Source of the DNA: Perkinsus chesapeaki
Lineage: Eukaryota; Perkinsozoa; Perkinsida; Perkinsidae
NCBI GenBank assembly: GCA_013115145.1
Contig: JAAPAO010000228.1
Coordinates: 1 to 39,972, forward strand
Direction: 5' to 3'
Length of the DNA stretch: 39,972 nucleotides
Shown here: piece after piece, positions 16,099-39,972 of the stretch
Layout of the letters: every line of letters starts with the position of its first letter
How positions within the stretch are numbered: position 1 is the stretch's first letter
Program-made: the position numbers and the translations under genes
The notes under the pieces: model-generated
Told to the model about the DNA's origin: nothing
Database searches by the model: none
What the model saw: only the letters and a program-made list of their open reading frames with translations

Positions 16099-16316
16099 GA
16101 ATAATTTGCAACAGGCATTATACGAAGGAATAAAAACCAATGTGGCAGAACAGGAAAATCAAAGGCTTTCGAATGAGTGGTACATGACCTAGCATGGAAA
16201 AAGCGAGGTGAGAGATATGCAACGTTGAAATTGAAGGATGTGACGTTTTAACCCATTTACTTCCTGGGCGTTTATGCTGTGCCCTGCTATGTTATTTAGA
16301 TATAGAATTTGTAGTA

Positions 16317-18263: not shown

Positions 18264-18689
18264 TTCGTGCCATTATCGGTACCTTCAATGTTTGCGGATC
18301 TCACACGAATTTCAGCTTCAAGTGTGGCTGAAGGCGACGGCCTCAACGGTCGTTGCGTATTTGGCGAATCTGCATCAATCGGTAGAAGATATTTTTCATG
18401 TCAGAATGACAGCCTTGGCGTTGCAAAGACATTCGTTATCCTTGAGATTTTCGGGCCTCTTTTTGCACGGCCTATTTGCGCATGCGTGCAATCGATGATT
18501 AGCTACGTGAGACTGAGTTCTTCCTTTATCTAGCGTATCTGTATGTGTGTGTGGCTTGTCTATATAATTACGAGCTTCGCTCCGTCGATGCTTCTAGGCT
18601 AAGGCTAGTGGGATTACACAAGGAGGGGGACAGAGGCTGCTCTCTATTACTGTATTTTAATAGTTACTACCGTTCCTTGATCTTTTATC
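18264..18689. other. GFAT 1-2 intergenic spacer
   Basis: 426 bases separate the stop of copy 1 from the ATG of copy 2. It shares no visible similarity with the other spacers, so duplication or homogenisation did not include flanking DNA. It must hold the terminator region of copy 1 and the promoter or trans-splice acceptor of copy 2. A T- and TA-rich run (ATTACTGTATTTTAATAG) lies 20-45 bases before the ATG. Confidence 0.6.
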
Positions 18690-20651: not shown

Positions 20652-21735
20652 ACTAACGATCCTAGTGATGGCTGCTGCTGATGTTATTAAGTCCCCACTT
20701 GCATTCCTTTTTGTTTTATGTGTATAGCTTGTCCGTCTCCATCGCCTACGATGACGTGGCGAAGGTAGTTACTAGGTCGATATTCCTTGATGGAGGTCAT
20801 CTTGGAATCAATTTGCTATAGACGAGCCACAACTCGTTACCCTTGTAAATCATCATCACACTACGATACCTAAGTATAAGGTTTACTCCTTTTGTGTTTG
20901 TCAATTGCAGCGGTTCACCCCCGCTTGTAGTAGTGCCGAATAATGTTCGGTTTCCTTGGATACACTTCCTTGAGACGCCCTAGCGTCGAATCTGATGTGC
21001 AAATTCGCTACATTGAGGGTGTACCGTACTGGTTGTTAGAGGCACAGGAAATCATGAGGGTGTTTCATGCCGAGCGAAGCTCATCTCGGCAACAAGAAAG
21101 CTTGTTCAACGCTCAGCAGTGTCAGACATTGGGCCGACGGCCTAAAGCGAACAGTAGCTCGAGAACCGACTTAGCACGCACGCGCATGATTGAGGTTCAG
21201 GTAGCCGCGAAATTCCAAACGAAGAATCTGTTGTTTTGGCGCCGAATGATGGCGGATCCAACGAAGACGCAGGAAAGCGGATTGCACTTTACGAGCGACT
21301 TTCGTCAATTTCGCAAGATGAGTCATCTGAGATTTCGCGATTGTCTAAGTTGCTAGCACAAGCATGATTGTGCTTGTCGAGACCTGTTGAGTTTCGAAGT
21401 CGAAGGGAGGAATCAAACTCAAAAGGGACAGCTGCGACACAACGGACTGGATGAGTAAAGAGAACTCGTGACGCATGACGCCTATGACAAGAGCCATATG
21501 TACCCCATCAGACACTTCATCCTCGAATAGCGAACGACAATATCACATCTCCATTGGAGTAGCCCACTTGACCACGCGCTGAGCTATGCATTATTTCGAT
21601 GAAAGATTCCTACGGGTATCTAAGCTAAAATGATATTGCGCTTTGAACACAAAAAGGGACGATTGACGTCGCCTTGTCGAGCTCTAGCATTATAGCTGTC
21701 AGTAATCACCGTACTTCTTCAGTTAATTTGTAGTC
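20652..21735. other. GFAT 2-3 intergenic spacer
   Basis: 1,084 bases with no confident gene. An open frame at 20943-21356 (+, 137 codons, MFGFLGYTSLRRPS...) is rich in Arg and Ser and has no recognised domain, leader or neighbouring splice signals. It may be chance or a relic. The spacer is unlike the 18264-18689 spacer. Confidence 0.45.
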
Positions 21736-23694
21736 ATGTGCGGCATCTTCGCCTACGTTGGAGACCGACAAGCTCTTCCTTGCCTTATCAAGGCACTTAA
21801 GCGTTTAGAATATAGAGGTTATGATTCAGCAGGTATCGGTATCCACAATGGCAAGGAGTTGAAAATTGCCAAGAAGGTCGGTAAGGTTGCCAATCTTGAG
21901 GCCTATTGTGGTGGTGTTAATAACCCCGAGTATGCTGGTACAATGGGTATCGCTCACACTCGTTGGGCTACTCATGGTGCTCCTACTGATGCTAATGCTC
22001 ATCCTCATTTCACTGAAGATCGTAAGATTGCTGTAGTTCATAATGGTATTATTGAGAACTACGCCAGTCTACGTGAGGAGCTAATCAATAAGGGTTATCA
22101 CTTCACTTCCGAGACCGATACCGAGTTGCTGGCTCATTTGGTCGCTGATGTCCGTAAGCAGATGGGTCCCGAGCCCTCTTGGTCGGTCGTTGTTTCCTGC
22201 GCCTTGGCTAACGTCACTGGTACTTACGGTGTTGTCTTTATGTTTGAGGATGAGCCCGATCTCCTTATCGGTGCTCGTAAGGGTTCCCCTCTGATCTTGG
22301 GTGTTGGTGATGGTGAGTACATGCTTGCTTCTGATGCCTCTGCTGTTGTCGAGTACACCAAGGACGTCGTCTACATCCGTGACGGTGAGCTGGTTGAGAT
22401 CCGCAGGTCTGGCTATCGTATTAGAAACATGAGTGTGATCAGTGATCGTCGTATGTCCGTCGATGAGGATATCGATAACAACCCGTTGGTCGAGCTTGAG
22501 CTATCTTTGGAGCAGATCGAGAAAGGTGGTTACCCTCACTTCATGCTCAAGGAGATCATGGATCAGGCCCGCTGTCTCGAGAACTCCTGCCGTGGTCGGC
22601 TATACAGAATAACAGAGGAGACTGGTGTGCCCGAAGATGCCATCTCTAAAAAATGGGGTATACGTTTGGGTGGTCTGGATGTTACCATTGATGGAAAGGA
22701 TCGCACGGCCTTACAGACTATTGCTGATGCCGATCGTATCATTATATGTGCTTGTGGTACCTCATGGCACTCTGGCCTTATTGGAGAGTACCTTATCGAA
22801 CAACTTGCTCGTATTAACGTTGAGGTTGAATATGCCTCTGAATTCCGTTATCGTAATCCCCTATTAACTCCTAAGGACGTTGTTATTGTTATTTCACAGT
22901 CTGGTGAGACCGCCGATACCCTCGAGGCCGTGCGTATCGCCAGGGAGTACGGTGCGACTCCTATTGGTATTGTCAACACCGTTGGCTCTACTATTGCTCG
23001 CGAGACTGACGCCGGTATCTACCTTCACGCTGGTCCCGAAATCGGTGTGGCTTCCACCAAGGCCTTCACTTCAGAGGTTATGGTATTGACTCTCTTAGCC
23101 TTGAGATTGGGCATGTGCAGGAAGACTATTGCCCCCGAGTACTTCGATACTTTGTGCGATCAGCTATCGGAGTTCCCCAAGACTATTGAGAGGGTTCTCA
23201 AGCTCAGTGGCAAGGTCAAGGACCTCTCTAGATTCTTCCGCTTGGCTCAGAACTTCCTGTTCCTCGGTCGTGGTATTCACTACCCTGTTGCATTGGAAGG
23301 TGCTTTGAAGCTTAAGGAGATATCTTATATTCATGCTGAAGGCTATCCTGCTGCTGAGATGAAGCATGGTCCCATTGCTTTGATTGATCGTTTGATGCCT
23401 GTTGTCTGTATTGCCCCCAAGAGTGATCCTACCTACGATAAGGTTAAGGCTAATATCGAAGAGGTTAAGGCTCGTAACGGTGATCTTATCATCCTGACCG
23501 AGGAGGGAAATTACGACTTGGATAGGTTCGCCGGTGACAAGGATTTTGTCATTCGTGTGCCGACTGTCGATATTGTTTTACAGCCTATTGTGTTCACAAT
23601 ACCGCTGCAAATGCTTGCGTATTATATTGCCGACCTTCGTGGCTGCTCTATTGATCAGCCGAAGAATCTGGCCAAATCTGTAACTGTCGAGTAG
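21736..23694 (+). CDS. GFAT: Glutamine:fructose-6-P aminotransferase, copy 3
   Basis: 652 residues, intronless, all catalytic motifs as in copies 1 and 2. Differences: TSEVMVLTLL where the others have TSQVMVLTL, a Lys in the tail (DQPKNLAKSVTVE instead of DQPRNLAKSVTVE), and its own linker (RMSVDEDIDNNPLVELELSL, TEETGVPEDAISKKWGIR). The N-terminal 165 codons and the block around CGTSWHSG to SQSGETAD again match the other copies nearly base for base. The tail residue change is conservative and probably tolerated. The gene is followed by an inverted pair GCTTGCTCG / CGAGCAAG at about 23715-23735, a possible 3'-end hairpin. Confidence 0.98.
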   Translation: MCGIFAYVGDRQALPCLIKALKRLEYRGYDSAGIGIHNGKELKIAKKVGKVANLEAYCGGVNNPEYAGTMGIAHTRWATHGAPTDANAHPHFTEDRKIAVVHNGIIENYASLREELINKGYHFTSETDTELLAHLVADVRKQMGPEPSWSVVVSCALANVTGTYGVVFMFEDEPDLLIGARKGSPLILGVGDGEYMLASDASAVVEYTKDVVYIRDGELVEIRRSGYRIRNMSVISDRRMSVDEDIDNNPLVELELSLEQIEKGGYPHFMLKEIMDQARCLENSCRGRLYRITEETGVPEDAISKKWGIRLGGLDVTIDGKDRTALQTIADADRIIICACGTSWHSGLIGEYLIEQLARINVEVEYASEFRYRNPLLTPKDVVIVISQSGETADTLEAVRIAREYGATPIGIVNTVGSTIARETDAGIYLHAGPEIGVASTKAFTSEVMVLTLLALRLGMCRKTIAPEYFDTLCDQLSEFPKTIERVLKLSGKVKDLSRFFRLAQNFLFLGRGIHYPVALEGALKLKEISYIHAEGYPAAEMKHGPIALIDRLMPVVCIAPKSDPTYDKVKANIEEVKARNGDLIILTEEGNYDLDRFAGDKDFVIRVPTVDIVLQPIVFTIPLQMLAYYIADLRGCSIDQPKNLAKSVTVE

Positions 23695-24986: not shown

Positions 24987-25660
24987 TCATTCCACCGCAT
25001 GTGAAGAGTGAAGATGCAGCGGCGGTTGAAGCCATAAAGTAAAGTGGCCTTCTTTGGGTTGCAACGAAGTTATTCTTACATCTGCAAACTTCGCTATGGT
25101 ATCTCGAACGTCGCCTTTATCATGCATCAAATCCATTGATAACGACAAAGCTGATTGACTAGCAAAGGCCACTGAGGGAATGAAAGTCACTGCGCCACAA
25201 AACTCTGTAGTCCTACCGTCCATGGCAGCGTGCTTGTCTTCATCCAAAGAATTGAGGGCAACTTCGAGTGCGGCAACTTCGCCCTTCAAGCCAGCAACGT
25301 CACCCTGAAGCCATGCGTATGCGTGCAACAATTCATACCGCTCTTTCTTGGCAAATCTTACTGCGTGCTCGGACATAATCGAATCCAATCGCTCAGCGAA
25401 ATCCATTTTCATATCGGCCATCTCATCAGTCACCGTATTCAACTAAATAAAAATGCCTCTACCAGGGATCGAATCTATGCTTCACCACCCACCTCCTCCT
25501 CGTAATGGGCTCTGGCCTTCTCCGAAGCTTCCGCCGCTGCCACTGTGATCCTCTCAGCAGCATCAGTTGCATCATCGAACCTCCTCCCTGTTATCTCAAC
25601 AAGTCTATCGACCAACTCCTCAGTAGAAAGATCTGTAATGAGAAGAGATAATTCTGCCAT
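24987..25660 (-). CDS. Coiled-coil protein, unknown, two exons
   Basis: Exon 1 (25493-25660) begins MAELSLLITDLSTEELVDRL and continues as a helical, alanine- and glutamate-rich segment (DAAERITVAAAEASEKARAH). Exon 2 (24987-25442) continues LNTVTDEMADMKMDFAERLD and has heptad-like spacing through LQGDVAGLKGEVAALEVAL, so a coiled coil of roughly residues 25-125 is likely. The 50-nt intron (25443-25492) opens with GTGGGT and closes with a T-rich tract and TTTAG, and phase is kept. The ATG at 25660 may not be the true start: the acidic protein upstream on the same strand could be joined to it by unresolved exons. The C-terminal part after residue 130 lacks heptads. Confidence 0.6.
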
Positions 25661-25797: not shown

Positions 25798-26738
25798 TTA
25801 GTGGCAAGTATGAACTGTCTCACAGTGGGACGATAATTTCCCAGCTTTGCCTCTGAAGCCATCCTTCTCACTTTGGCATTCACGTCTTTCTATTTCCATG
25901 GCGCCCTCCTTGGTAGTAGGATCGGGGGTATCTTCGGCAGTAGCAGAATCTTTATCGGGTTCGTAATCCTCGCTCAACCTCGGTTCGGATTCAGAAGCGG
26001 TCACCTGTGCGGTTATTCCGAACTCGCTTCGGCCGAAGATCCACACTTACCTCCGAAGCCTGGTCTTGTTCTCCCTCACTAGAAATCGTATCTTTCGCAC
26101 TCGGAAGATTCTCCTTCTGTTCCTGGTGGCCACCAAGCTGGATCTCTTCAATTGGTAACTTCTCCTCCCAACTTGATAGAGACATCTCCTCGCCCGGAAG
26201 AACTCCTTCATCCGATGAATTCTCCGCAGTGCGGAGCTTATCGGAGATCTTCACATCATTGGCAACATCTGCACTCTCTTCACCCGTACTTCCACTGCCC
26301 TCCTGCGCACTCGAAAGATTCTCCTCCTCCTTAGGCTGCGCACTCGAAAGATTCCCCTCCTCCACTGGTTGCGCACTCGAAAGATTCCCCTCCTCCTCTG
26401 GTTGCGCACTCGAAAGATTCTCCTCCTCTGGTTGCGAACTCGAAAGATTTTCCCCCTCCTTAGGTTGCGCACTCGATAGACTCTCACTAGATTTCCCAGC
26501 TTCAACCGGTACGACTTTAAGCGCTTCAGCAAGAGAAGGGTCCGAGCTCTTAGCACCAACAGACTCGGCCTCGCTCACAGCCTTCTCCACGGCGGTATTG
26601 GTATCGCCCTTCTCTATCCTAACAAGGCAAAGATGGAACAAACGTGATTTACATAGGATTTCGCTGTCTAACAGTTACCGTAAGATTCTCCCCTATATAC
26701 CCTCTCCTATTCAAAGATAATCTACCAACAACCATCAT
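25798..26738 (-). CDS. Acidic protein with NLSSAQ repeats, unknown
   Basis: Exon 1 (26701-26738) encodes MMVVGRLSLNRR; an 82-nt intron (26619-26700) has GTATAT...TTAG ends. Exon 2 (26051-26618) holds the repeats; a 46-nt intron (26005-26050) has GTAAGT...CACAG; exon 3 (from 26004) continues VTASESEPRLSEDYEPDKDS. All joins keep phase. Residues about 55-115 consist of degenerate units of 10-12 residues of the form ENLSSAQPEE. The protein is very acidic and Ser-rich with almost no hydrophobic core, so it is probably disordered. The 3' end is unresolved: the open frame stops at 25798, but a donor-like GTGAGA at 25823 suggests it may splice onward, perhaps into the coiled-coil gene downstream. The function cannot be read from the sequence. 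Confidence 0.55.
26290..26490 (-). repeat. In-frame minisatellite, 30-36 bp units
   Basis: The plus strand shows GCGCACTCGAAAGATTC repeating at about 30-36 base spacing with 6-7 imperfect units. All spacings are multiples of three, so the array can expand or contract without breaking the frame of the acidic protein. Confidence 0.9.
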
Positions 26739-27092
26739 CACGGAATCGAGATGAAATACGGAGCAATTACAATTATTATATTATATAAACGTTTACTATA
26801 TAATAATAAAGTTCTGCCAGGAATGTCGGTCCTAGACTGAAGTCAAGCAACATCGTTCAATCTTCCAGGGAACATTCTATCATTATCTACGACTCAAGTC
26901 TCTGCGATTTCGCACGCATGCACCTACCGCTCGCCCTCCGAACGACTCGTCCAACAAGCCAAATCAGAAATTGGAAATCCGTAGAAGATTCAACTGTTCT
27001 AAAGATCGGTAAGAGTATCTTGGCTTGATGCAAAACTTACGCCTAGTGTGTTGAAATCGATCGAGTAATCGATATTTAAATCCAACATAAAC

Positions 27093-27768
27093 TTACTTTC
27101 CTAGGAACCTCTTCATTTCCGGGAAGTCGTCGATATTATTATTAATATAAAAACCAGCTCCAACACCAGCGGCAGCAGATAAGGCCACAAACCGGGGACC
27201 CCAGCCTAATGGATAGTAATGTAGGCTACACACGGGACAACCCAGGTTCTATCCCCACCAACCGTAATTAAATCATAATTGTGATGCCATACTCTAGCCA
27301 ACAAAGCCAGGAGAACGATACAGAAAAACGGTTTTCCCCTTAGGTATAAGGGGAAAACCCGAAAACCGAAAACCCGATTCAAAAAGTCCAAAAATGGTCC
27401 CTTAAACACACCCATCAGACATTATTCCATCACACATCGTTTACTTCCCCAAGGCTCGGCTGCCGCGCCTCATGCATTGGACTTGAGGTGACATTTTACA
27501 CTTCAGGAGGCCCAACTCGAAATAGGCTTTTAAACTTGCTGCTGTAAACTGTTTTCTCTATAAACTTTTCCAACTGTAAAGCTGGGCCGAAATCATATCT
27601 CATCGATCAGTAGTAGGTCCCGGCTCATTTATTACGTGGTTTGCTGGCAGCCTGCCTCGCCGCTTCAACGCTTGCTGCTGCTCCCGCTGTCTTCTGAGCT
27701 GATGTTCTTGTCGCTTCTTCTAGAAGATACCGACTCAGACGAATAGCATTTGTTGATGATGATGTCAT
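27093..27768 (-). CDS. Small single-span membrane protein, two exons
   Basis: Exon 1 (27636-27768) encodes MTSSSTNAIRLSRYLLEEAT and a basic, Ala-rich segment ending AARQAASKP. Exon 2 (27093-27205) encodes WGPRFVALSAAAGVGAGFYI then NNNIDDFPEMKRFLGK and a TAA stop. The C|GC junction completes an Arg codon, giving 81 residues in all. The basic, Ser/Ala-rich start without acidic residues in the first 16, followed by one hydrophobic span, resembles small mitochondrial inner-membrane subunits; that is an inference. The 430-nt intron (27206-27635) begins GTAATAAATG and ends CATTAG, and is made largely of a tRNA-like repeat in antisense. Confidence 0.65.
27206..27635 (+). mobile_element. tRNA-like SINE candidate forming an intron
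   Basis: Read on the plus strand it starts CTAATGGATAGTAATGTAGG (A-box-like, cf. the CCTAATGGATAAGGC of tRNA-Arg genes), has a B-box GGTTCTATCCC at 27245-27255, and ends CCCGGCTCATTTATTAC at 27635. Its two ends coincide exactly with the intron borders of the minus-strand gene. A 13-bp hairpin lies inside (27330-27359). Confidence 0.6.
27330..27359. repeat. Perfect 13-bp inverted repeat, 4-nt loop
   Basis: GGTTTTCCCCTTA, loop GGTA, then TAAGGGGAAAACC. A third partial copy (AAAACCCGAAAACCGAAAACCC) follows at once. It lies in the middle of the 27206-27635 intron. Confidence 0.95.
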
Positions 27769-28306
27769 AGAAAATTTTACGCCAAATAAATGGAAAAAAT
27801 CAAACCTATTCGGAAATGGTAACATCATGTTACTAACCATGAACACCCTACGTGAACATAATGCACGCTTAGAGCTAAGATACTCAACTTATCACTTTTC
27901 CTAGTGTTCTTCTCCCGATACCGAATATGAAAATGAGAGAAGGATGGATTATTGCCACTATGAGCCTGAGTGTCGTGACGCTAAAAAGCGGCACTCCAGC
28001 GAATGTATATATCTTTGATACGATCGGTACCTCCCCATGATTCTAGATCGGGCAAAGCTCTTCTGCCGGCAGATGAAACTTTCGAATGAGTTGACGAAGC
28101 AGGTCCATGGTACCGTTACCAAATGGCGTTCTTAATTTCACTTTGAAATTGCAGTACCTAACGTTCTTGGAATTCACATTTCGCAGAAAAAGCGGAAATT
28201 TTCCAGAAGAAAACATAACAAAGCGACACAGAGCGAACTCAGCTTCCCCACCATAATATTTACTCTGCCTTTCCCAGTAACAATAAAGCTAGAGGTGTCA
28301 GAAACT

Positions 28307-28568
28307 TCACCGTTCCGTTCGCCAAGCGAATAAGCTCCTGATTTTATCCATGAATGTCATCTCTTCTATCTCCTCATCAATTTCCTCATCCTCCTCAGGA
28401 AGCTCTCCCTCCCATTCAGATTCTCTTATTTTCGCTATTCTCAATTTTTCATCCTTATTAGGCATCTCGAACGAATACAAAGGTTCATCATCGTCCCTAT
28501 ATTTACCCTCCAAAGGATGCCGTTCGACAATGGCTGGCCGAGGAGGAACAACAGGCGTCGGGTCCCAC
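28307..28568 (-). CDS. C-terminal exon of an acidic small protein
   Basis: The exon opens after CTGCTAG at 28568 and reads WDPTPVVPPRPAIVERHPLE, continues GKYRDDDEPLYSFEMPNKDE and an acidic stretch GELPEEDEEIDEEIEE, and ends FMDKIRSLFAWRTER with a TGA. The proline-rich start, acidic middle and basic-aromatic tail are clearly non-random. The 5' exon is not certain: a phase-compatible candidate (MNGFAFGELWIIWA, near 28825-28785) would need the weak donor GTCTTG and overlaps the stop of the gene upstream. No family recognised. Confidence 0.5.
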
Positions 28569-28829
28569 CTAGCAGCAATTCCGTGGCGCGTGACGAAAAT
28601 GATATCCGAATAGTGACTTTTTACTAAATAGTTGCCTGATAATCTCGAAAATTTCGCCTACACTCCTACAGCATCCTACACCAGACAAAACTCAATATTT
28701 TAAACCCGTCTGCCGTTACTAAACCCCCCTATGAAAGCTCGAGCTCACCTCTAATAAAGATTGAACGAGGTGAGGGAAATAATCAAGACGCCCAGATGAT
28801 CCAAAGCTCTCCAAAGGCAAATCCGTTCA

Positions 28830-29098
28830 TTACAGTTCTCTGATCTCCTCATGTATATAATCATATTCTCCATTTGGATTGGCAATAATTCTAAGGATGC
28901 CTCCAAAGGACATAGCTGCCAGAATGGCCTTGAATGGTATCAAGTTCAGGAACCGATCGCCTGATGGACTGGTTAAGCATCCAGACTAGTGATCGAAAGG
29001 TCCCGCGTTCGAAGATTGAAGCGCTGAAAGTTCTGTAAAGTTTAGCTTCGCTCCGCCCCTTCTCTATTACTCTCTCCTCCATGTACAGCATAGATTGT
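28830..29098 (-). CDS. 3' exons of a small membrane protein, unknown
   Basis: Exon 29071-29098 (TIYAVHGGE) joins over a 110-nt intron (28961-29070) to exon 28830-28960 (DRFLNLIPFKAILAAMSFGG then ILRIIANPNGEYDYIHEEIR and EL, stop TAA). The join A|GC gives Ser and keeps phase. IPFKAILAAMSFGGILRIIA is a likely membrane-spanning segment. The 5' exons could not be traced. No family recognised. Confidence 0.5.
28961..29070 (+). mobile_element. Compact tRNA-like SINE candidate forming an intron
   Basis: At 110 bases this is the shortest and clearest copy. It starts CTGATGGACTGGTTAAGCAT (A-box-like), has the B-box GCGTTCGAAG at 29005-29014, and ends CCGCCCCTTCTCTATTAC at 29070. Its ends coincide with the splice sites of the minus-strand gene: GTAATAGAG as donor and CCATCAG as acceptor. 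Confidence 0.6.
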
Positions 29099-30518
29099 CT
29101 GAGAAGGATGCCTCCTTTGACTTAGACGACACCCAACAGCTGCGGCTTGTCGAAACATTTATAAGAAAAATGTAAAGGGTCATAAGTAGAAGTAGGCTAG
29201 GTAACAGTGGCGTCCTCCCCGACACCGCCGTTTTGCCCATTTTGCCGAAAATGCCGGCTTATAATTGAACCTCTCCTCATAAAGTCAAGCCCCCTCCCAA
29301 TTTTGCAAGCCTAAAATGCTTTTAGTACTTCTGGTCCAGAAGTCACGAATTAGGACTCTCCAGAAATCCTAGTCGGAATCCACAGGTTCTAATGAGTCCT
29401 GACACATCAGGAATTCGAGACTTGTTGTACACAGGAAAGTTCGAAACACCGAGCGAACTGTCCTCTTTTTGAAGTCTGAGAGTCAGAATCGATTCATTTG
29501 TAAGAAGGAATCTGAGTAGTAAAATCAGCTAATTGCACGACCACAGTTCACATAGTGCCACCATTCGATCTACAACTAGAATGCCAGCTTAACCAAGCCA
29601 ACGAAGGGCGCAGAAGAGAAACGATACGACAAACTCTGAAGAGCTTATTCTTCCCAGTGTTGCTTTTTAATCCCGATAAAAATCTTAACCAGCTTGCAGC
29701 TGACATCCCCCTTTCCAAGCACCACACCAAATTCAACGAGTTAAAACTCTCATGACTATTACAGAAATAATGACCGCTGCGCCACAAAATTAATAACGAC
29801 CATTTGCATCTTCGAATCGAGACTCCTTTGGTGGGAACCTGTCACACGCACGGTCGAAGCTAGGATACGTTCCAGCATAACCACGAAACTAAACTGAGTT
29901 TTTTGAACTTGATTAACCAAGACGCCGCGGACACGCTCATCAGCCGCCTCAAAATAAGAATAAATACAAACCGTACGTGAATGCTCTTTCCACGAACTTT
30001 GAAACCGGTTGTGAGAATGGAGTGTGAAATTCCCGAACATATTACAAATTTTTCATCACTTTTCTGGTCATCGGCAACTCATCCGGGTTGAGAAGAACAA
30101 AGGCGATCATACCCACACTGGTCAGACCGATCATGCTACCATACACGGATAGTCTTTCACGATCTGAAAGGAAGCACGCTCCAACCTAAGATACTGTCGA
30201 GGTAACCAAGATACGATTGCGCGCTGCGAAGATTATAACTGGAGTCCAGAAAATATATTTCAAAAAGCTGTCTTGTAGTCCAAGGCAACCCTTCCATTAA
30301 TTCGTTGGTGACCAACGTAGTGCACTCCCCTTGCTAAATAAAACTTGACCAGCATGATAAATTATCATGGCTTGGACAAGTTAACTTACCAAGCGAATCT
30401 TAATGACTTCCAACACTAATGTTTTTTACCATCACAATCACTGAACCAAATAGTACGGGAGAGTTCACTCAAAACGACCACTAATGCTAATCGATCGGAT
30501 GATCGATCATAAGATCCC
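29099..30518. other. Unresolved stretch
   Basis: Apart from the possible exon at 29802-30040 there is no confident gene. A plus-strand frame at 29555-29755 (MPPFDLQLECQLNQ...) and a minus frame at 29548-29787 overlap, and neither is supported. The motif ATTTTGTGGCGCAG (complement of CTGCGCCACAAAAT at about 29768) is one of a dispersed set. Confidence 0.4.
29802..30040 (-). CDS. Possible exon, unknown
   Basis: An open stretch with protein-like composition (EAADERVRGVLVNQVQKTQF and FVVMLERILASTVRVTG). A possible donor GTCGTT follows CAAATG at 29801. No joined neighbour was established and the family is not recognised. Chance openness cannot be excluded. Confidence 0.3.
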
Positions 30519-30772
30519 TTACACAGCAAAAGTGCCGAAATTGTCTTCCCTCAATTCCACCACCCCTCCCATGCCTATTACAAGTGACTCTCCTTCCATC
30601 TCTAGTTGACAAAGTCGATCTTCTTGGATTTTCAAAGTAAGTCCAGTTCAGCCTTGCCGCTCGCCGCAGGAACATCTCAGAACACCAACAACCAACTTAT
30701 TAATAATTTCACACAAGTCGAAAATTTCATCTTCGCGACCCTCCCCGAACCCCGCATCACCGCGAAACTCCA
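30519..30772 (-). CDS. Possible two exons of an unknown protein
   Basis: EFRGDAGFGEGREDEIFDL (from 30772, after CCTCACAG) can be joined in phase over an intron starting GTGAAATT near 30714 to RLCQLEMEGESLVIGMGGVV then ELREDNFGTFAV and a TAA at 30519-30521. Without an intron the same frame is interrupted by one TGA. The segment GTAATAGGCATGGGAGG (complement of 30565-30581) inside this reading also matches the shared intron donor of this region, so the true 3' structure is uncertain. Confidence 0.35.
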
Positions 30773-30886
30773 CTGTGAGGATTCTGCAATGTTTCCAGAT
30801 TTTGCAAATATGCCTCTGTAACCCCCAAACACTACACAAAGACAATGCACTGAAACATTCAATCATTAAAAAACTTCGCTCCGCCA

Positions 30887-31436
30887 TTAATACCCTCTTC
30901 CCTCAATTATTGCTCTTTCCCTTCTAACTTTCCTACCACTCATATAACCTGTAAATAATATAATTCCAGCTCCGATGGGATAAACCCATCTCCAAGCTGC
31001 CGCTGAATTATCCTCAATGGTCGGTCCTCCTGTTGGATTTGCCCATGCTGAAAAAATGATGTCGCCCGGGATCGAACTTAGATCGATAATATAATAGAAT
31101 TCACACGAGCATTTCCGATTTCACCCGTGAGATGTTCTTAAGGCATTCTCAAAGAAATACAGTTGCGCTTGCCTTTGTAAGGAGTCGTCCGACCGGGCGT
31201 CCAGGAACCGGAAAATTTCAGTAGGTTCTCTGATTTGAACACCACCAGGATCATCTCTCACTTATAGGATTCCCAACATCTTTAGATGTATTCCCTTGTG
31301 CTCCTTCCCCCTTCTCCTTCCCTTCTTCCTTCCCATCCGAGCTTTTCCCCGTGCAAAATGCAGCCCTATTAACACCAATAAAACGACTCTGCCTTAACAG
31401 TGCCGTTCTTGAACCACGACGGAGAGGGGCCAACAT
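30887..31436 (-). CDS. Small mitochondrial-type membrane protein, two exons
   Basis: Exon 1 (31262-31436) starts MLAPLRRGSRTALLRQSRFI, an Arg-rich amphipathic leader typical of mitochondrial import, then a Lys/Glu/Gly linker. Exon 2 (30887-31047) reads WANPTGGPTIEDNSAAAWRW, a hydrophobic span VYPIGAGIILFTGYM, and a basic tail SGRKVRRERAIIEGRGY with TAA at 30887-30889. The 214-nt intron has GTGAGA...TTTTTTCAG ends, and the A|CA join gives Thr in frame: 111 residues in total. The build (leader, single span, basic tail) fits an accessory subunit of an inner-membrane complex, but no family is recognised. Confidence 0.75.
31048..31261 (-). mobile_element. Intron ending in tRNA-like 3' half plus T run
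   Basis: On the minus strand the intron ends with AAGTTCGATCCCGGGCGA, about a dozen further bases including a run of six T, and CAG. GTTCGATCCC is a perfect B-box, and the T run is what a Pol III terminator would look like; it also serves as the polypyrimidine tract. No clear A-box precedes it. Compare the 50-nt intron 25443-25492, which ends the same way (GATTCGATCCCTGG, then T runs and TTTAG). Confidence 0.4.
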
Positions 31437-32015
31437 TTATAAAGAGGAAAACTGCAGCAGCAGAGAAGGAAAGGAGTTTTGGCCAGCTATCCCAAAACCG
31501 AAGTCCATTCTCCCGCCTACCGGTATCAACATCACTCACAACCATAAAATTTACACTCGAAACTGAAAATCCGAAAATCGCATATTTTCACTGCGGCATT
31601 TTCTAACATACACGCCTCGAGTGATGCATGTGGTCGACTCTATGTTGCCGAGTAAAGAAAGATTATTCGAGATAGTTTCGCCGGTCGATTATTAGATCTT
31701 CCGCGAGACCCAACAAGCGCCTTCCTCTCTAGGGATTCGGTGAAAAGATTCTATCGCTCCATTGGAGGAAGCTGAGAAATATTACAGTACTGATTTTAAA
31801 AATAGTCCACCTTTAACACAACAATACATAATCCCGCGTCCATATGGCTTGTGCATGTTGATCCGCCACACTCCCCAAATGAAGCAGCTATGTGAACTTT
31901 CATACCGACTTTTCCCCAACTAATTAAAATTCCCACTCATACACAACACGTATCCCTCCAACAAGAACATCACTAAACATGGTCATACCTCATCATCCTC
32001 TAACCTAAAACTATT
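31437..32015. other. Intergenic or intronic, nothing seen
   Basis: Stop-rich on both strands and AT-rich. Plus-strand frames at 31351-31606 are shadows of the mitochondrial-type gene's first exon and flank. Confidence 0.5.
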
Positions 32016-33042
32016 TCACTCGCCACGAAATTCATACCTCTCCAACCTACTTGTATCGCTCCTAACCTTCAGCGCTGCCTTAATAGCATTCTCAATACTT
32101 TTCCGTCGAACCTCCTCCCCTCTTTCCGACACTCCTTTCTTATTACGAGCCACTTCCACCTTTTTCAATGGAGTAACTTTGGCACTTCCCGTTGCCGACG
32201 GAGTAACTAAATTACTCTTAATTTTCAACCTTTCACGACAATTCATGTCACTCGCAAAACCAGTGTATGATTCAGCACTTTTTTGGTAACATTATTGGTC
32301 CCAGAGCGATCCACACTATATAGAGCTCCCATCTACTTCTCTCAAACTTTCAAGGCTGGGATTTTCGACGTCAGAGTTCTCTATAAATGCTACAAGGACA
32401 CTCATCCACAGTAAACCCGAGAATCAGTACATTCCCTAACGTACACTAACTTTGTTAATAGCTAGCAGGAAGGCCTACTCATGACCTAGTACACTTGCCT
32501 GATTCCCCATGAGTTTTTCTACCACATTTCCTTCCTATCCGCCCCTTTATTACCTCCTCTCGGTGTACTATTATTCTTAACCGTTGTTTCAGTCAATGCC
32601 TTCAACTCATCAATTCCCATCTTTCTAGATTGAATATCCTTCTCTTTAGCTTCTAGTAACCTACCATCCATTCTTAAACCACTCACACTACGCTCCTCAA
32701 ATACTCAATACCACAGAGACATTCTATCACTTCCGCTGCCAACTACTACTCAAGCCAGGAGCAGCAAACCGGTGATACATTATCCCGGAAATAAGATACT
32801 ATATGATATACCGATTATATAGGGAATATATGAGCTTTGTACCATACTCTTAATAATTCTACCTCTCATATCTACCTATTGCACATAGCACCACTTTACA
32901 TTGCAGCCAGACAACGGGGCAATCGCACACTTCGATTTCCGGTCCTCTATTACTTAGCCTCATCATCATCTTTACAAAGGACATCATCCTCAACAGCTGC
33001 CGCATCAAATGATGGTTGCGCACCATCTTCACATTCAACCAC
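32016..33042 (-). CDS. Three exons of an unknown charged protein
   Basis: Exon 32954-33042 reads VVECEDGAQPSFDAAAVEDD then VLCKDDDEA. Exon 32554-32687 reads VSGLRMDGRLLEAKEKDIQS and RKMGIDELKALTETTVKNNS then TPRG. Exon 32038-32206 reads TPSATGSAKVTPLKKVEVAR, then basic, helical sequence to RRKSIENAIKAALKV. All joins keep phase: AA|T across the 266-nt intron 32688-32953 and G|TT across the 347-nt intron 32207-32553. Both introns start GTAATA. The frame can run to a TGA at 32016, or splice at GTATGAATTT (32037). The N-terminus is missing: the frame at 33292-33528 might contribute a leader but was not joined. Acidic first, basic last, no cysteine pairs or membrane span; family not recognised. 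Confidence 0.55.
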
Positions 33043-33758
33043 CTATGAAACATATATTATACCCAAGTTCTAACGTGACACACTTCACTCATTCCCACTG
33101 TTCACATTGGGGATATTATCAACTAGTAATATTTATCATTATGTAACATAGATATAGAGGACCGAAAATGCCCACGGGCCTCACGGCTGCGCCCAAGTTC
33201 AACGCTACTATATAATATATTTTCTTAACGCCCATTAAAGGATGATACTATTCCATCTTAAATAGAACTATATCTAAGGCTCATAATAGGCCTATAGACC
33301 TTCCCTTCTCAAAACCAGACCAGCTATATTGAGTTTTTTGAAGAAAACCGATGCCACAAAATTTTTCTCGCCCATGCCCCCTTGTACCCTAAAACCTTCC
33401 TTCCCTCCCCCACTCCCTATCATCTTCCCAAGACGCTCGTAGCATCCTCCTTCATATGAGATAAGGCCGCCCATACAGGAACAAAGAGAACAAAAAAAGG
33501 CAATACTGAAACAGCACGGAGCTCTCATAACGCGCTGTGAAGACTAGATTGATTGCAGGTCGCAACTGAAATGAAATAGATGCTCTCTCCAAGTACTAGC
33601 GAAAAATCTAGCTTCAAAATACTTGCATTTTCACGACACAATTCAGCATATATACCGAAATATGATCCCGTTTCTAGATCCATCTCAGCTCCTAAAAGCT
33701 GAACCGAGGAACCAAAGATATCTTTTCCAGTAGAAACGTGGTAAGATACGCTCGAGCT
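33043..33758. other. Unresolved upstream region
   Basis: It contains the minus frame 33292-33528 (MRAPCCFSIAFFCSLCSC...), whose hydrophobic start could be a signal peptide but which quickly becomes low-complexity Gly/Lys. It also contains ATTTTGTGGCATCGG (complement near 33344-33358), part of the dispersed motif set. No gene is claimed. Confidence 0.35.
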
Positions 33759-36700
33759 CTATCCAGACTCGGAAAGTGTGCTCGGCGGGATACTAGAAAC
33801 CTCATCAGATGACGTCGCTGGAGTGACCCCCGGCCAGCTCTGGTCGAACACTTCCGCTAGAGGCTCGCGATCAAGTAAAAGGATTGCTTCACAGTGATAG
33901 GTATGAGGGAACATGTCAACGGGGATCTGATGATTCAAGTAAAGAGCAGTATGAAGATGAGTAGAGCTTCGATTGAATACAAGTATGGACAAGCATATCC
34001 TACAATCTTCCAAAGAAAAAGAAAAGAGCGGTATGAGATTTTTATACGCTAATACAACACGTAGTAAACCTGCCAAAGTTGAAGGAGTGAAAATTCGGTG
34101 AAAAGTGAAGTTGCTAAAGATGTGTTGTGTAGCGCTTCAACAAAAGCCTCTTTTATCCTTTTGTCAAAAGGAGCGTAGGCGCATATATCCTCCAATCTTC
34201 AGAACATAATGGGAGGAGCGGTATGAATATTACAATAATCTTAGGCACCAATATCCCTCCTTCCTCCTTCATCTCCTTATGACTCTCTACCGTTGTATAG
34301 TCGTTCTCGGGCCTAAACAAAAGCCTATCATTCACCACAAACCGCCACCTCACAGTCACCGCAAGCCTCTCGACTATCAACCCTACAAAACATCTATTTC
34401 TTCCTAGAAAGGCAATCCTGTCTCTCAATGCCTTTCCCATTGTGTCGCCTGTCCCCCTATTACTTTGTTAGTTGTACAACATCCCTGCTAAGTGTATCAG
34501 GATTACAGGACACATATACTATCCTACTTATATAAGAGCATTGCCTTAGACACCTCAATACCTGAATACGATGACCAGGAGACTCGCCATAAAAGTTGAT
34601 ACGCGAGCACGTTACTAGAATTAGTAGTACTAATGTCAGTTACTACGAACTTATTCTACATATAAACCTTCAACACCCTGTAGGCTTATCACATGAGGTT
34701 AAGACAAGTAAATGAGAAGGAGCGTGCATTCTCAACTCTTCAACTTTTCTCAGTCGAATCACTCGATACTCTGCAAATTCGTGGCGAGTACATTGTCACA
34801 AAGCACCTTATTTCTACTCCGTAATCCCCCTCCCCCTATTACATTCGGATGCAGACCAGATCTCGGTGGGTCCACTATAACAGTTAACTTTTGATCTCCT
34901 TTAATATCAGAACATGCTTCCTTAATAACATCCTCTATAGTATCCTCTGCTCGACCTAACATAGCTAAAGGATAACCTACTCACTTCGCTACCCGAAATA
35001 TTAACCAAATATTTACCACATCATCGTACCTTCACGCGCCACGAAATTCTACGATTTTTCCACGTCCCTACAGTGCTCCCCATCTAGAACGGGTGCTTAT
35101 TAGAGTACGCAATAGGAGGCTTTTTGAAGGTAATCAACAACCTAGTCAACTGAAAACTGAAAGCAGTATTTAAAGAGTAAATCTCCAAGAAGTGCGCGTT
35201 TTCCAGTGCCTGATTCAAACCTATATTAATCCTTTATTACCAGCAATGAACTTAACAGCTCCCTCCAGTCCATTAGCCTTCGCAGATGCCTTAGCATCTT
35301 CAACAGCATCAGCAACCAGCTCTAATCCATACACTCGTGGCTTACCATCAGCCTTAGTCCCAAGGATACTAGCAAACACCTACAATCGCCAAGATACGTT
35401 CGACCTTCCAAACGAGCCCAAAGATACGCATTTTCATACTATACATAATTTCCACCCTCACATTACGACGATGCTCAACATTTTCTTCCCGAACCCTATT
35501 AGTTATTCGCACTATGAATATTCCTGTACATCTTATCTCCACCTTACCTGTGTTATAGTACCAACACCCGAGCACACATCCACCACTGCTGCTGGTAGAG
35601 TACTTTGATCTAAGTCCTCTAACTTAGGCATATCACCATCAGGGCTACCAGTGAGGGCCAGCCTTACCTAGACCGGATGACAAGAGTCTTACCCAGAGAT
35701 GCTGTTAGTAGCATAAAATCCTGCTTCAACCACAGCCGAATAGGAACACCAAAATTTTTTTCGCGCGAGGATAATCTTCCCCCCGTTGAAGAACACTACC
35801 GGTAAATAGTGAAGGGTTCGTGCCCATTGTCAATACTAAGATCCTCGGAATATTTCGTCACACAATTCGCTGTCCCCTATTACCGCTGCCGTATAAAGTT
35901 TCTTGCACATAACCACATTAGTCTGGAAAAATGATGCTGGTTGCAGTGGGAACTCCAGCCCTAACATATCCATGGTCACTTTAGTGTCGCCATATATCTG
36001 AACCGCACATGAAACGGTTAATCGATTTGCAAAGATTCTCAATCTTAACATCGCTATAAGCGAATAGGATAGCATTTATATCACGCCTCTCCGAATCGAA
36101 CAGGCCCAATTTCCCAGGCCAGAAGCCAGATACAGGTTTAACCTTCTTCTCCGGTATGCCCCATATGCTTATGTATGTCTATAAGGCCTCAAAGATTCAT
36201 TAGGCTGCCTCTGCAAGGAGGTCGACTCTACGACACGCAGCCCCGATCTATATGAGTCGTATTTTACCACTTAACTATTTCAACCAGAATGAGTCCGCCT
36301 TCCCTACATGATAGAGATCCTCCTTTTTCATATCACACGCATCACACACGCCATTGTTAGTCTGCATAAACACCGAGGATACCGGTACCTGTAATGAGAT
36401 CAAAAATCTTTACAGTGCGTAATAACCGTAAGATACCAAAATAAACAACAACACAGTGCCAGCCTCGCTGCTATACAAACCAGTGGTGAAGAATCGTATT
36501 TTTATGATTAGTCCAATCCGGATGTCGCGAATGGAGACCGCTCGTCATAATTTTTCTGCATAACTATGATGCGGCATTATTAGTTTATACTGTTATCGAG
36601 TATACTATACAGTTGGCCAAAAATTGATAAAATGATCAAGACGCTATGAGATATATTTATACCAAAATATGTATACCCGGAATTTTACCAGGGCTCAGGA

Positions 36701-39224
36701 GATTATGACAACTAACTGAACCCGCTACCACAGCGATACCTCTATACTGGCTATAATCACCAGCCTGGTCCGAGGGGACAGGCTGCACAAGATGAACTAG
36801 AAGATCAAGATATGTTATTAGGATTCTTAGCAGTAAGTTCCCTAGATAGATTAAAATATAATAAGATGACCAGATATTAGTAAATAAGATCAGCCTTCAT
36901 TATTACACTAAGATTCCTATTAGCATCACTTTCCGCCCATGCCCTTATTATACTAGTAGCCTTATCATACGGCTCACAACACATCACCACCATCAACATC
37001 TCTCTACGTGTTGGGGACCATCTAAGCATCACTTGACGCCACGTCCCCGTCTCTAAAACAAAAACAACAACTACGCTCTCCAATCTCATATCATTCGGTT
37101 TATCGATTTGGTGACATGAAAGCGGTCACACCCCTATATTAGCGACATTAAAAAACCGTCGATTTTTGTGAGCATCTTCACTGATACCGTAGAGCCCCCG
37201 CCCTAAATTAACCAACTCTTCACTCGTTACTAATATTCGGAGCCTTTTATCCTTCCCAGCCTTCCCATACTACTTTCATGTCTCGAGAATGGTTTAACTT
37301 GTTCATAGTTCTCCAACACTATCCTCCTCAGCTCTCCCTCTATCTCCTTCATACACGCTGGTATCTACATTATATCTATATTTACCGACCCGGCCCGAGA
37401 TATCCATAAGGGCAATTTAATTCAATTCAACAAATGGATATACGAGACTGATCTAGCGATGCTGACTATGTTGTTCTTCACAGATGTCTTATATGCCACA
37501 GGCCAGACTCCGCAGTGTGATTAATTTCAATCAATATTTCATACTATAAAAACACTTGGGCAGAAAGCTACACACAGAATACCTCTACAAGCGAGCAGAT
37601 GTTACCAATTATATACTGCACAGATCACGAATTTGTCACTAGTAAAATTAGCTCCCTCTCCACACTTCGAACGCCTTACTAATAAGTACGTACAATCCCA
37701 TTCCCTCAGCTGGCAAATAGTTGGAGAAAATTTGGTATAAAAACACTCCCGTTTTTACATGTGGCAAAGCTGCTCCTGACTCTATCAACAGCTCATGTCC
37801 CTCTACTTTCCTAACAAAACCCACCTCCGGCTGAGTACCTAAATGATCGACATTGAAACAGCCTATCAACTAACAAGCCTCAGTTCCCATACCTGCTAGT
37901 TCGATGACGATAACCATCTTTAGGGTGGGCAAGGTGGAAAGATCACCGGGCAGAATTTCAAATCGAAACTTGGATGAGTTGTTCCCCAAAGCGAGTGGCG
38001 TGTGAGCGATCGAGCTTCTGCGTGGCAGTACTCATCGCGCACAAAAATGTTTCTGCTTTCTCAAATGGGAGGAGCCCATTATCGGGAAATCGAGTACGGG
38101 AATTTCAACGGATAAGGAATCATACGAAAATTAGTTTTGCTTGTAGAAAAAGTTCTCCGCCAGTTTTCGCATTTGTAGACGACGCGCATCAAGAATTTGG
38201 CAGTACACCGAGATATTTTTGAACAACATCTAATATCAACGCTTACATCAATAATTGATTTCCCGTCAATTCCCTGCCCCATTTAGTACAATCATAATCC
38301 TTGTATCCGATAGTCAGCTCGCACTTGTTCCTATAACCTTCTAAATTGTCCTCGGGACTGCCCATTATCTCATGTACAATACATCCAGGCTTATTTTTAT
38401 GCACCTATTGAAAATTCCTTCACAAGATACCCCATAGTGAGAACATCACCAAGACGAATATAGTGAGAATTTTGCGAACGATACGGTATCCGTAATAAGA
38501 GACTGCGAGACTGCTCAGGGCGAGACGTACTGAGCCACGGCCAGTGCTACAGTGAGCAATCCTATAAACCATCCTTCTCGAAGAATCTACACCACTTCCC
38601 GGTCAAGTTAGACCTGTTCCAATCAGTTCGAAAGCCGCGGGAAAAACGGACTCGCTTTTAACCGTTTTTTTCAGTCACCGTAAATACTTTTGCTAAACTG
38701 ATAATCTCCTGTCGTGCAAATTCGGGTTTTAAAAATGTGAAGCTTGAACGTAAATATAGATTAAATGAATGTAGTTACGCACTTCCACTACACTCCTTAT
38801 ACAAGACTACAAACTCCTACGGAGAACAAATCAATAAACCGTTCCAACGGGATCTTCACTAATATACTAATATCGATACTACAACATATAAAACTGAGTG
38901 TTCATTCCCTCATCGGGAGATTCACCTTCACCAACAAATTACCAACACCCAGGAGAAGTCCCTTTATTACTCTCGCCCAGGTGGGGAAGCTATACTGTAG
39001 TTTATCACAATGGGCTTTAACCTGACTTATACAAAGATACCTCCAAGCCAGCAATCCAACAGATACCTCTCTCGTGAAGTTCCTAGCGGCATGCATTATA
39101 AACTGTTCTTTTAGTTTAAGCTGTTCAGTATAAGAATATGTATAAAGCGGGGCGCTCTTCTCCAGCAAAGTCTCTGAAGAAACGATGCTTAAGATCAGGA
39201 CTACCCTCACACGGATGTATTACT
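33759..39224 (-). CDS. TRMT2: tRNA (uracil-5-)-methyltransferase, TRMT2/TrmA family
   Basis: A SAM-dependent enzyme that makes m5U (normally U54) in tRNA. Exons resolved with phase: 38971-39173 (KSAPLYTYSYTEQLKLKEQF), 38290-38404 (MGSPEDNLEGYRNKCELTIG), 37759-37838 (QPEVGFVRKVEGHELLIESG), one from about 37704, one from 37052 (ETGTWRQVMLRWS), 35884-35997 (LEFPLQPASFFQTN, the family's FFQ-N motif), 35548-35667 (VVDVCSGVGTIT, SAM motif I), 35241-35379 (RVYGLELVADAVEDAK), 34843-34955 (VDPPRSGLHPN), 34464-34561 (RIVYVSCNPDTLSRDV, with the catalytic Cys in SCNP) and 33759-33926 (IPVDMFPHTYHCEAILLLDR to the stop). Two gaps (about 36.0-36.9 kb and 33927-34463) must hold at least one short exon. An upstream exon ends at 39224 and its start is unresolved. 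All catalytic motifs are present, so the enzyme is probably functional. Introns are 50-566 nt. Confidence 0.9.
34562..34842 (+). mobile_element. SINE-like intron in TRMT2
   Basis: The plus-strand end is C-rich then CTATTAC at 34842, giving the donor GTAATAGGGGG. The start CTGAATACGATGACCAGGAG resembles the head of the 35668 element (CTAGACCGGATGACAAGAG). The B-box is weak (AGTTGATACGC). The motif AAATTCGTGGCGAG lies inside. Confidence 0.45.
34956..35240 (+). mobile_element. SINE-like intron in TRMT2
   Basis: The plus-strand tail CCTTTATTAC (35231-35240) gives the donor GTAATAAAGG; the head CTAACATAGCTAAAGGATAA contains an A-box-like TAGCTAAAGG. Near the two borders an 8-base inverted pair TAAAGGAT / ATCCTTTA is present. 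No clear B-box. The motif GCGCCACGAAATT lies inside. Confidence 0.45.
35668..35883 (+). mobile_element. tRNA-like SINE candidate intron in TRMT2
   Basis: The head CTAGACCGGATGACAAGAG is A-box-like, GCTTCAACC at about 35723-35731 is B-box-like, and the tail TCCCCTATTAC ends at 35883. The host gene shows GGTAA on both sides of the intron, a possible 5-bp target duplication. Confidence 0.5.
37839..38289 (+). mobile_element. SINE-like intron in TRMT2 with 5-bp direct repeat
   Basis: The exon sequence GTACT occurs at both borders (donor GTACTAAATGGGGC, acceptor CATTTAG|GTACT), as expected of a target-site duplication. The heptamer CTAAATG at one border is inverted at the other (CATTTAG). A B-box-like GTTCGATGAC sits about 60 bases from the plus-strand start (37899-37908). 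Confidence 0.5.
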
Positions 39225-39520
39225 AATGCCGAGATAGGATGAAAATTTACGGTATAAAATTGGTCCCAAGCCCAAAAGGAAACAATTTATCCCTCTATGA
39301 CATCCTAGTTCGGAAAGTGATATAACAATGGAGAGTTCTTTCAGACTTGCCTCAAAAACGCACGTAGGAAGCCTCAAACTAATCTCCACTATCGCTTTCC
39401 GATCCGAACGATTAACGGGCGCAAAACTGCTCTTCGAGAGGCAAAAAGGATTCCTAGTCCAGGAGGAATTATTGGTAAGATAAAAAGCATCAACTAAGTC
39501 AACCATATATGTTAATATTA

Positions 39521-39972
39521 GATACGATATAGGGTCCTAGTATTCCCTATTAAAGCATCAAAATGGTCTATATAGGATACGATATAGGATCCTAGTATTC
39601 CCTATTAAAGCATCAAATTGGTCTATATAGGATACGATATAGGATCCTAGTATTCCCTATAAGAGCATCAAATTGGTCTATATAGGATACGATATAGGAT
39701 CCTAGTATTCCCTATAAAAGCATCAAATTGGTCTATATAGGATACGATATAGGATCCTAGTATTCCCTATAAAAGCATCAAATTGGTCTATATATGATAC
39801 GATATAGGATCCTAGTATTCCCTATAAAAGCATCAAATTGGTCTATATTAGATACGATATAGGGTCCTAGTATTCCCTATTAAAGCATCAAATTGGTCTC
39901 TATAGGATACGATATAGAATCCTAGTATTCCCTATTAAAGCATCAAATTGGTCTATATAGGATACGATATAG
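39521..39972. repeat. 55-bp satellite array at right edge
   Basis: GATACGATATAG recurs at 39521, 39576, 39631, 39686, 39741, 39796, 39851, 39906 and 39961, exactly 55 bases apart. The units differ by a few substitutions (for example AGGGTCCTAG against AGGATCCTAG). The array runs off the window. It is AT-rich with many TATA-type words and lies upstream of the TRMT2 gene. Confidence 0.97.

Follow-up and report, generated by a model that had tools for sequence, protein, structure and literature searches.

The source of spliceosomal introns is an old open question. Introners are related sequences that occur as introns in many genes, and such an element may supply one splice site itself while flanking sequence provides the other; the survey of these elements attributes most intron bursts to DNA-based elements, and its main text does not contain the words SINE (short interspersed element), tRNA, or Perkinsus (Gozashti et al., 2022; PMC9860276). 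In Amoebophrya, a relative of Perkinsus, the introner elements carry inverted and direct repeats and use non-canonical splice sites (PMC7789003). In Perkinsus, introns are present in 69.2% of 104 genes, and the majority are shorter than 100 bp (PMC3101222). Here, we analyzed a 39,972-nt stretch of Perkinsus chesapeaki DNA (one whole contig, JAAPAO010000228.1 of assembly GCA_013115145.1; hereafter, the window), and compared it with the rest of the genome. The sequences point to what is probably a class of spliceosomal introns in which the 3′ end, lying in sense orientation, comes from the 3′ portion of a tRNA gene. Among the titles and abstracts listed by a literature search, with subscription journals mostly outside its reach, none dealt with tRNA-derived introns or with Perkinsus introners, and the available text of a paper on the Perkinsozoa spliced leader (PMC9399869) shows nothing on tRNA-derived introns.

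The genome searched is a 35.4 Mb Perkinsus assembly of 884 contigs, and the reversed sequence or the reversed pattern served as the control for pattern counts. Local samples comprised 220 kb (for a matrix scan and all-against-all blastn) and 298 kb (for short-motif counts). The tRNA positions follow the customary numbering, and boxes A and B their usual consensus. Exon borders were predicted with a gene finder trained from flat GT and AG signals, with no knowledge of tRNA; it overpredicts, and its predictions do not amount to proof. In the genome, the Rfam search for tRNAs scored 63 of 3361 candidates, and therefore no count of tRNA genes or relics can be taken from it.

The signal that carries this reading is found in the sense direction across the genome. 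A B box followed after 11 nt by TTT occurs 809 times (true tRNA genes included), compared with 5 in the reversed control, and a B box followed at 6–22 nt by TTTYAG occurs 196 times, spread over many contigs, compared with 1; the same pattern with GA instead of AG yields 42 and 3, respectively. In 68 of the 100 listed matches, exactly 11 nt separate the B box from the T-run; an A occupies position 73 in 70, and positions 70–72 are mostly GGC or GGT. When GTAAG is required 3–30 nt upstream and no AG is demanded, there are 98 matches (0 reversed), five of which share one identical sequence, likely a tRNA; with GATAG replacing GTAAG there are 38, including 18 that, by reading, are multi-copy tRNAs (two sequences, in 13 and 5 copies). 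Within 14 nt downstream, YAG is present in 12 of 20 GTAAG loci, YGA, YAC, and GAY in 5 each, RAG in 3, and AGY in 1. Additionally, a matrix for the tRNA 3′ end gave 14 matches above 16 bits in 220 kb and none in the reversed sequence; five of these are complete tRNA genes and nine are not, with three of the nine in the window. Several of the non-tRNA loci found by a separate pattern, which combines an A-box-like head with a B box, likewise have a T-arm, an acceptor strand, a T-run, and then a close AG in the sense direction.

Many of these sequences read as introns of ∼40–60 nt consisting of a donor, a variable loop, a T-arm, the 3′ strand of the acceptor stem, A73, a T-run, and YAG. The spacing between GTAAG and the B box has two peaks, at 12 nt (21 of 93 sequences, including one true tRNA) and at 5–6 nt (22 of 93). 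At the former spacing, GTAAG sits at tRNA positions 35–39, which fits the 3′ half of a tRNA with an NGU (threonine) anticodon, and a multi-copy sequence of exactly this form is presumably tRNA-Thr; at the latter, GT precedes AAGGTC or its remnant, which is the variable region (an AGGTC variable loop is present in 28/93). The acceptor segments form subfamilies, with a mean nearest-neighbor distance of 2.04, compared with 2.58 for column shuffles (lowest of 100, 2.27). A complete tRNA is clear in 2 of 40 sampled loci, L049 [tRNA-Val(TAC)] and L060 [tRNA-Ser(TGA)], each followed directly by a T-run and YAG. In L049, the tRNA accounts for 73 of the 98 nt of a probable intron and TTTTAG comes right after it, although this junction was assigned by reading and the unspliced frame is also open; the one further ARAGORN call, L059, is doubtful because it requires a 107-nt tRNA intron. 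Short introns were also considered as complete mini-tRNAs with a paired acceptor stem, and this idea was rejected: a helix of at least 6 bp occurs in 5 of 92 sequences, compared with 5.8 in shuffles, although two of the 92 have 7-bp matches.

A second repeated intron module, GCGGAGCGAAGC (at most one mismatch), was observed 15 times in the 298 kb, compared with 2 reversed, at sites including 29056 (−) in the window, L008 7482–7521, L033 1704, L044 287, and L040 2453. Several times it lies shortly past a donor-like GT and is followed by a T-run and AG, and it also follows the donor of intron 28961–29070; this module may represent another intron-forming family.

Evidence on predicted splicing at the sense tRNA-like ends comes from the window and from sampled loci (coordinates of window features are given in Table 1). 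For the 214-nt intron in the window, the frame is open over the junction (...DVGNPI^TWANPTGGP...), and a homologue, P0121, crosses it gap-free with 33/55 identical residues; the gene finder takes the same donor, 31261, but extends the intron to 30575. The last 33 nt of the predicted 50-nt intron (25475–25443) are a sense tRNA-like 3′ end with a matrix score of 27.8, and the exon after it is open reading frame 25442–24990. The first 20 TTTYAG loci, which are about every fifth of the matches listed, hold 21 matches, and several are readable directly as introns of 42–63 nt. For 9 of the 21, the acceptor chosen by the gene finder coincides with the AG of the T-run, compared with 31/153 TTTYAG sites in L003–L020, and in 9 of 20 GTAAG loci its donor coincides with GTAAG (both borders exact in 4), compared with 52/313 GTAAG sites in L003–L020.

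Protein homology bears on the junctions of several of these loci. In L058, an ORC1/CDC6 protein is interrupted between NLVL and IVVIDELD by a tRNA-like intron of 42 nt; with the donor picked by eye, the spliced peptide is below the Pfam cut-offs, and its support is a match over the junction to PDB 7jgr_G (1.3e-7). The spliced peptide of L050 matches a response-regulator domain (4.8e-6; 27.2 bits, below the Pfam cut-off of 30.2), and in L065, a 42-nt intron interrupts a topoisomerase I N-domain, to which the spliced peptide aligns over the entire length of the peptide at 2.7e-10, above the Pfam cut-off, with no PDB chain at 1e-3. The spliced peptides of L041, L043, L049, L053, L057, L068, L070, L074, and L076 yielded nothing above Pfam cut-offs. 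In four cases (L058, L050, L065, and intron 31261–31048), the segment is missing from the protein by homology, which supports junctions predicted to join the flanks in frame, with borders that homology does not fix to the exact base.

Several observations weigh against a tRNA-derived origin of these introns, or limit the counts from which it is argued. The acceptor is not exactly predicted in 12 of the 21 matches and the donor is not in 11 of the 20 loci, two of the nine exact acceptors (L046 and L047) close introns whose predicted start is the edge of the sequence analyzed, and at L058 the gene finder prefers a longer intron with the same acceptor. YTG, which is no splice signal, is found downstream in 11 of the 20 GTAAG loci, so that T-rich context accounts for part of the YAG count, and some of the 809 matches are true tRNA genes. 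Furthermore, no upstream partner of the acceptor-stem strand was found beyond shuffles in 92 sequences, and covariation is present at only one of three T-stem positions (outer pairs formed in 51/93 compared with 39 in shuffles, which covary, and in 68 compared with 69 and 47 compared with 52, which do not).

As with introners (PMC9860276), similar intron sequence is found in many genes (the 196 and 98 matches across contigs), and here too one splice site may come with the element and the other from the surroundings; unlike introners, the copies here are alike in a tRNA 3′ end only, and are strongly diverged. The Amoebophrya elements (PMC7789003) are likewise intron-forming repeats, whereas the introns described here have predicted GT-AG borders and a tRNA-like end. 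The resemblance to other tRNA-related elements is also partial. tRNA-derived SINEs are dispersed tRNA-related sequences with boxes A and B, and the longer copies here, also dispersed, have candidate matches to both boxes. Unlike such SINEs, the copies have no tRNA-unrelated body or LINE-like tail that we could see, their sequence stops at the tRNA and its T-run, and most of the short introns are without the 5′ half; the spacing of exactly 11 nt between B box and T-run, found in 68 of the 100 listed matches, leaves no room for a SINE body.

The earlier note on this contig had placed tRNA-derived sequence in introns as a source of splice sites, and the findings here support such sequence as a recurrent intron component able to supply a splice site. 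The origin we consider probable is one in which inserted tRNA genes, or 5′-truncated tRNA copies, would have been removable by the spliceosome. The tRNA-derived 3′ end would comprise the variable loop, the T-arm, the acceptor 3′ strand, the discriminator A73, and the RNA polymerase III (pol III) terminator T-run, with the T-run acting as the polypyrimidine tract and the next YAG as the acceptor. The donor would be an upstream GT, often itself partly tRNA: either GTAAG at anticodon-loop positions 35–39, or GT before the variable-region AAGGTC. Later shrinkage may have brought the introns toward a minimum length of ∼40–50 nt, near which they would then have been held, and the loss of 5′ sequence would be consistent with reverse transcription that starts at the 3′ end. 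If this is true, the pol III terminator has been reused as a splicing signal, and the signature (B box, 11 nt, T-run, YAG) is searchable in any genome. More tentatively, tRNA 3′ halves could possibly be ready-made introns in Perkinsus and a standing source of new ones: the anticodon loop GUAAG of an NGU-type tRNA would serve as the 5′ splice site, the pol III trailer UUUU with AG as the 3′ splice site, and the ∼40-nt half, being of the usual short-intron size, would be removable at once after landing in a gene. An RNA class of every cell, with a 3′ half bearing near-perfect splice signals, would then be a different source of introns.

A rival account, which we regard as rather unlikely while still a serious contender, involves no intron gain: tRNA genes would have landed in older introns beside the 3′ splice site, where the terminator became the polypyrimidine tract, and the introns would then have lost upstream sequence while the tRNA decayed from its 5′ side. 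L049 and L060, where complete tRNA genes in probable introns stand directly before the T-run and YAG, resemble known tRNA genes nested in introns and speak for this account, as do longer introns with such ends (e.g., 31261–31048). However, 38 of the 40 loci lack a clear complete tRNA, and the donors favor two tRNA positions, a preference not expected from random shrinkage.

Selection on the T-arm or B box, for splicing or for binding of pol III/TFIIIC, offers another explanation, in which the likeness to tRNA would be maintained or convergent. The B box is intact while inner acceptor positions vary, and one T-stem pair covaries, as this would have it; however, an intact B box was demanded by the search itself, two of the three outer T-stem pairs are without covariation, and the 11-nt spacing, A73, and the AGGTC variable loop are tRNA features unneeded for such a function. 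We consider this explanation improbable.

The earlier note itself had attributed the introns to one SINE family inserted in antisense, the complement of its tail becoming the donor GTAATAGGGG and the complement of its head the acceptor. Intron 28961–29070 does have a donor and an acceptor of these forms, and a real tRNA-like element in antisense makes up its 3′ half. Of the five heads claimed, this one and that at 27206 are tRNA-like, while those at 35668, 33927, and 37839 are at chance level. Head 27206 matches CTAATGG in full, and its B box differs at one base (one such match in the window, none in the reversed window); it is among the 38 genome-wide matches to the head and B-box pattern (3 reversed), which include true tRNAs. 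Head 28961 belongs to an element whose B box is decayed, and which aligns with L073, a sense tRNA-like element on another contig, with a score of 40 (best of 200 shuffles, 26; reversed, 20). The other three have 4, 1, and 2 head mismatches, respectively, and a best B box with 2–3 mismatches, where a pattern with one head and two B-box mismatches already matches the window and the reversed window 8 times each; they showed no similarity to the tRNA-like set. The proposed acceptor CCATYAG, as the complement of CTRATGG, holds for both real heads, which lie antisense in minus-strand introns. Antisense copies such as these two would also occur, with the A-box complement giving the acceptor. The spliced peptide of intron 28961–29070 has no homologue that we found; for intron 27206–27635 the frame was read by eye (...AASKPR^GWGPRFVALSAAAGVGAGFY), and the gene finder places other borders.

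No family of such elements could be recovered. Genome searches with 28950–29080 and 27190–27420, in which the best candidates were scored, each returned only the query itself, and the 46 pairs matched in all-against-all blastn of noncoding segments from the 220 kb formed no family of at least four members; a similar full-length multi-copy set, as in SINE families, was thus not found. Within the window, a repeat search returned tandem arrays, gene copies, and short chance pairs, and no SINE; ARAGORN found no tRNA, there was no match at Rfam cut-offs, and a permissive Rfam threshold over 26500–39972 gave six matches, all weak and unrelated. Nor is the tail part of the element. In a sample of 20 head and B-box loci, ARAGORN identifies seven as complete tRNA genes, and L038 is a further one truncated where its contig ends; at L030, the locus in the window, TATTAC (its donor) lies 374 nt past the B box, and at the other 11 non-tRNA loci TATTAC is absent within 500 nt in eight and lies at 190, 437, and 494 nt in three. 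Of seven predicted GTAATANNGGG introns outside the window, none has a tRNA-3′-end matrix match above 8 bits. With no close copies among the candidates scored, no linked tail at the loci sampled, three of five heads at chance level, and the main signal in the sense orientation, a single antisense SINE family supplying both splice sites is very improbable.

The donor motif was also said to be too long a match for plain splice donors. GTAATA does start nine of the ten sites named for it, while 36948 reads ATAAGGG, and five of the ten (35883, 35240, 32953, 32553, and 29070) are used as donors by the gene finder. Without seeding, GTAATA is the commonest predicted donor (21/293, with GTAAGT at 20), hand-picked regions included; after seven GTAATA introns at GTAATANNGGG matches whose regions had been hand-picked are dropped, it ranks second (14/286 predicted introns, compared with 20 for GTAAGT; 9/249 outside the window). 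GGG at +7 to +15 follows 2 of 14 GTAATA donors, both in the window, compared with 22/272 other donors, and the GTAATANNGGG pattern (GTAATA plus GGG) occurs 466 times genome-wide, compared with 310 reversed. Based on these counts, GTAATA is an ordinary donor here, and its GGG extension is a weak excess. GTAAT donors tend toward long introns (26/188 introns over 85 nt compared with 4/90 of 36–70 nt, hand-picked sites counted in). U1 snRNA was sought as a match to the GTAATA-GGG motif, but neither a loop pattern nor the Rfam model, which scored 41 of 492 candidates, recovered one from the genome, and it may be diverged or absent from the assembly; branch-point k-mers gave no clear signal in 120 introns.

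Table 1. Positions of introns, tRNA-like elements, and other features in the window.
Feature	Position	Strand	Details
214-nt intron, 3′ end a sense tRNA-like 3′ end	31048..31261	−	donor GTGAGAGATG, acceptor TTTTTTCAG; supported by frame and homologue
tRNA-like 3′ end	31048..31078	−	AGTTCGATCCC + 11 nt + T-run + CAG; matrix 23.3 (reversed, none above 16 in 220 kb)
50-nt intron	25443..25492	−	GTGGGTGG...ATTTTTATTTAG; both borders predicted by gene finder
110-nt intron	28961..29070	−	donor GTAATAGAGAAGGGG, acceptor CCATCAG; predicted exactly by gene finder
tRNA-like element, antisense in 3′ part of 110-nt intron	28961..29013	+	26/30 bases shared with L073
430-nt intron	27206..27635	−	donor GTAATAAATGAG, acceptor CCATTAG; borders read by eye
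tRNA-like head and B box, antisense at 3′ end of 430-nt intron	27206..27255	+	head and B-box pattern; matrix 17.8
Three tandem GFAT (glucosamine-6-phosphate synthase) frames	16212–18260, 18681–20648, 21727–23691	+	655–683 codons, no visible intron
Tandem arrays at both contig ends	1–215; 39449–39972		units of 43 and 55 nt
Tandem repeat	26304–26491		units of 30–33 nt; within minus-strand open frame 25994–26674
Cytochrome P450-like gene pieces	3849–5442; 12463–10771	+; −	FGGGPRQCPGQ motif, by reading open frames

Other features of the window are also listed in Table 1. A repeated motif, TTCGTGGCGCGTGAA (at most two mismatches), occurs 10 times in the 298 kb, compared with 1 reversed, at sites including 28580 (+), 35045 (−), and 32029 (−) in the window, and L020 8314, L024 2776, and L062 129. 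The three GFAT copies are 97–99% identical in their first part and 72–90% identical in later parts, and the protein encoded at 18690–20645 shows identities of 89% and 82% to proteins of Perkinsus olseni and P. marinus, respectively.

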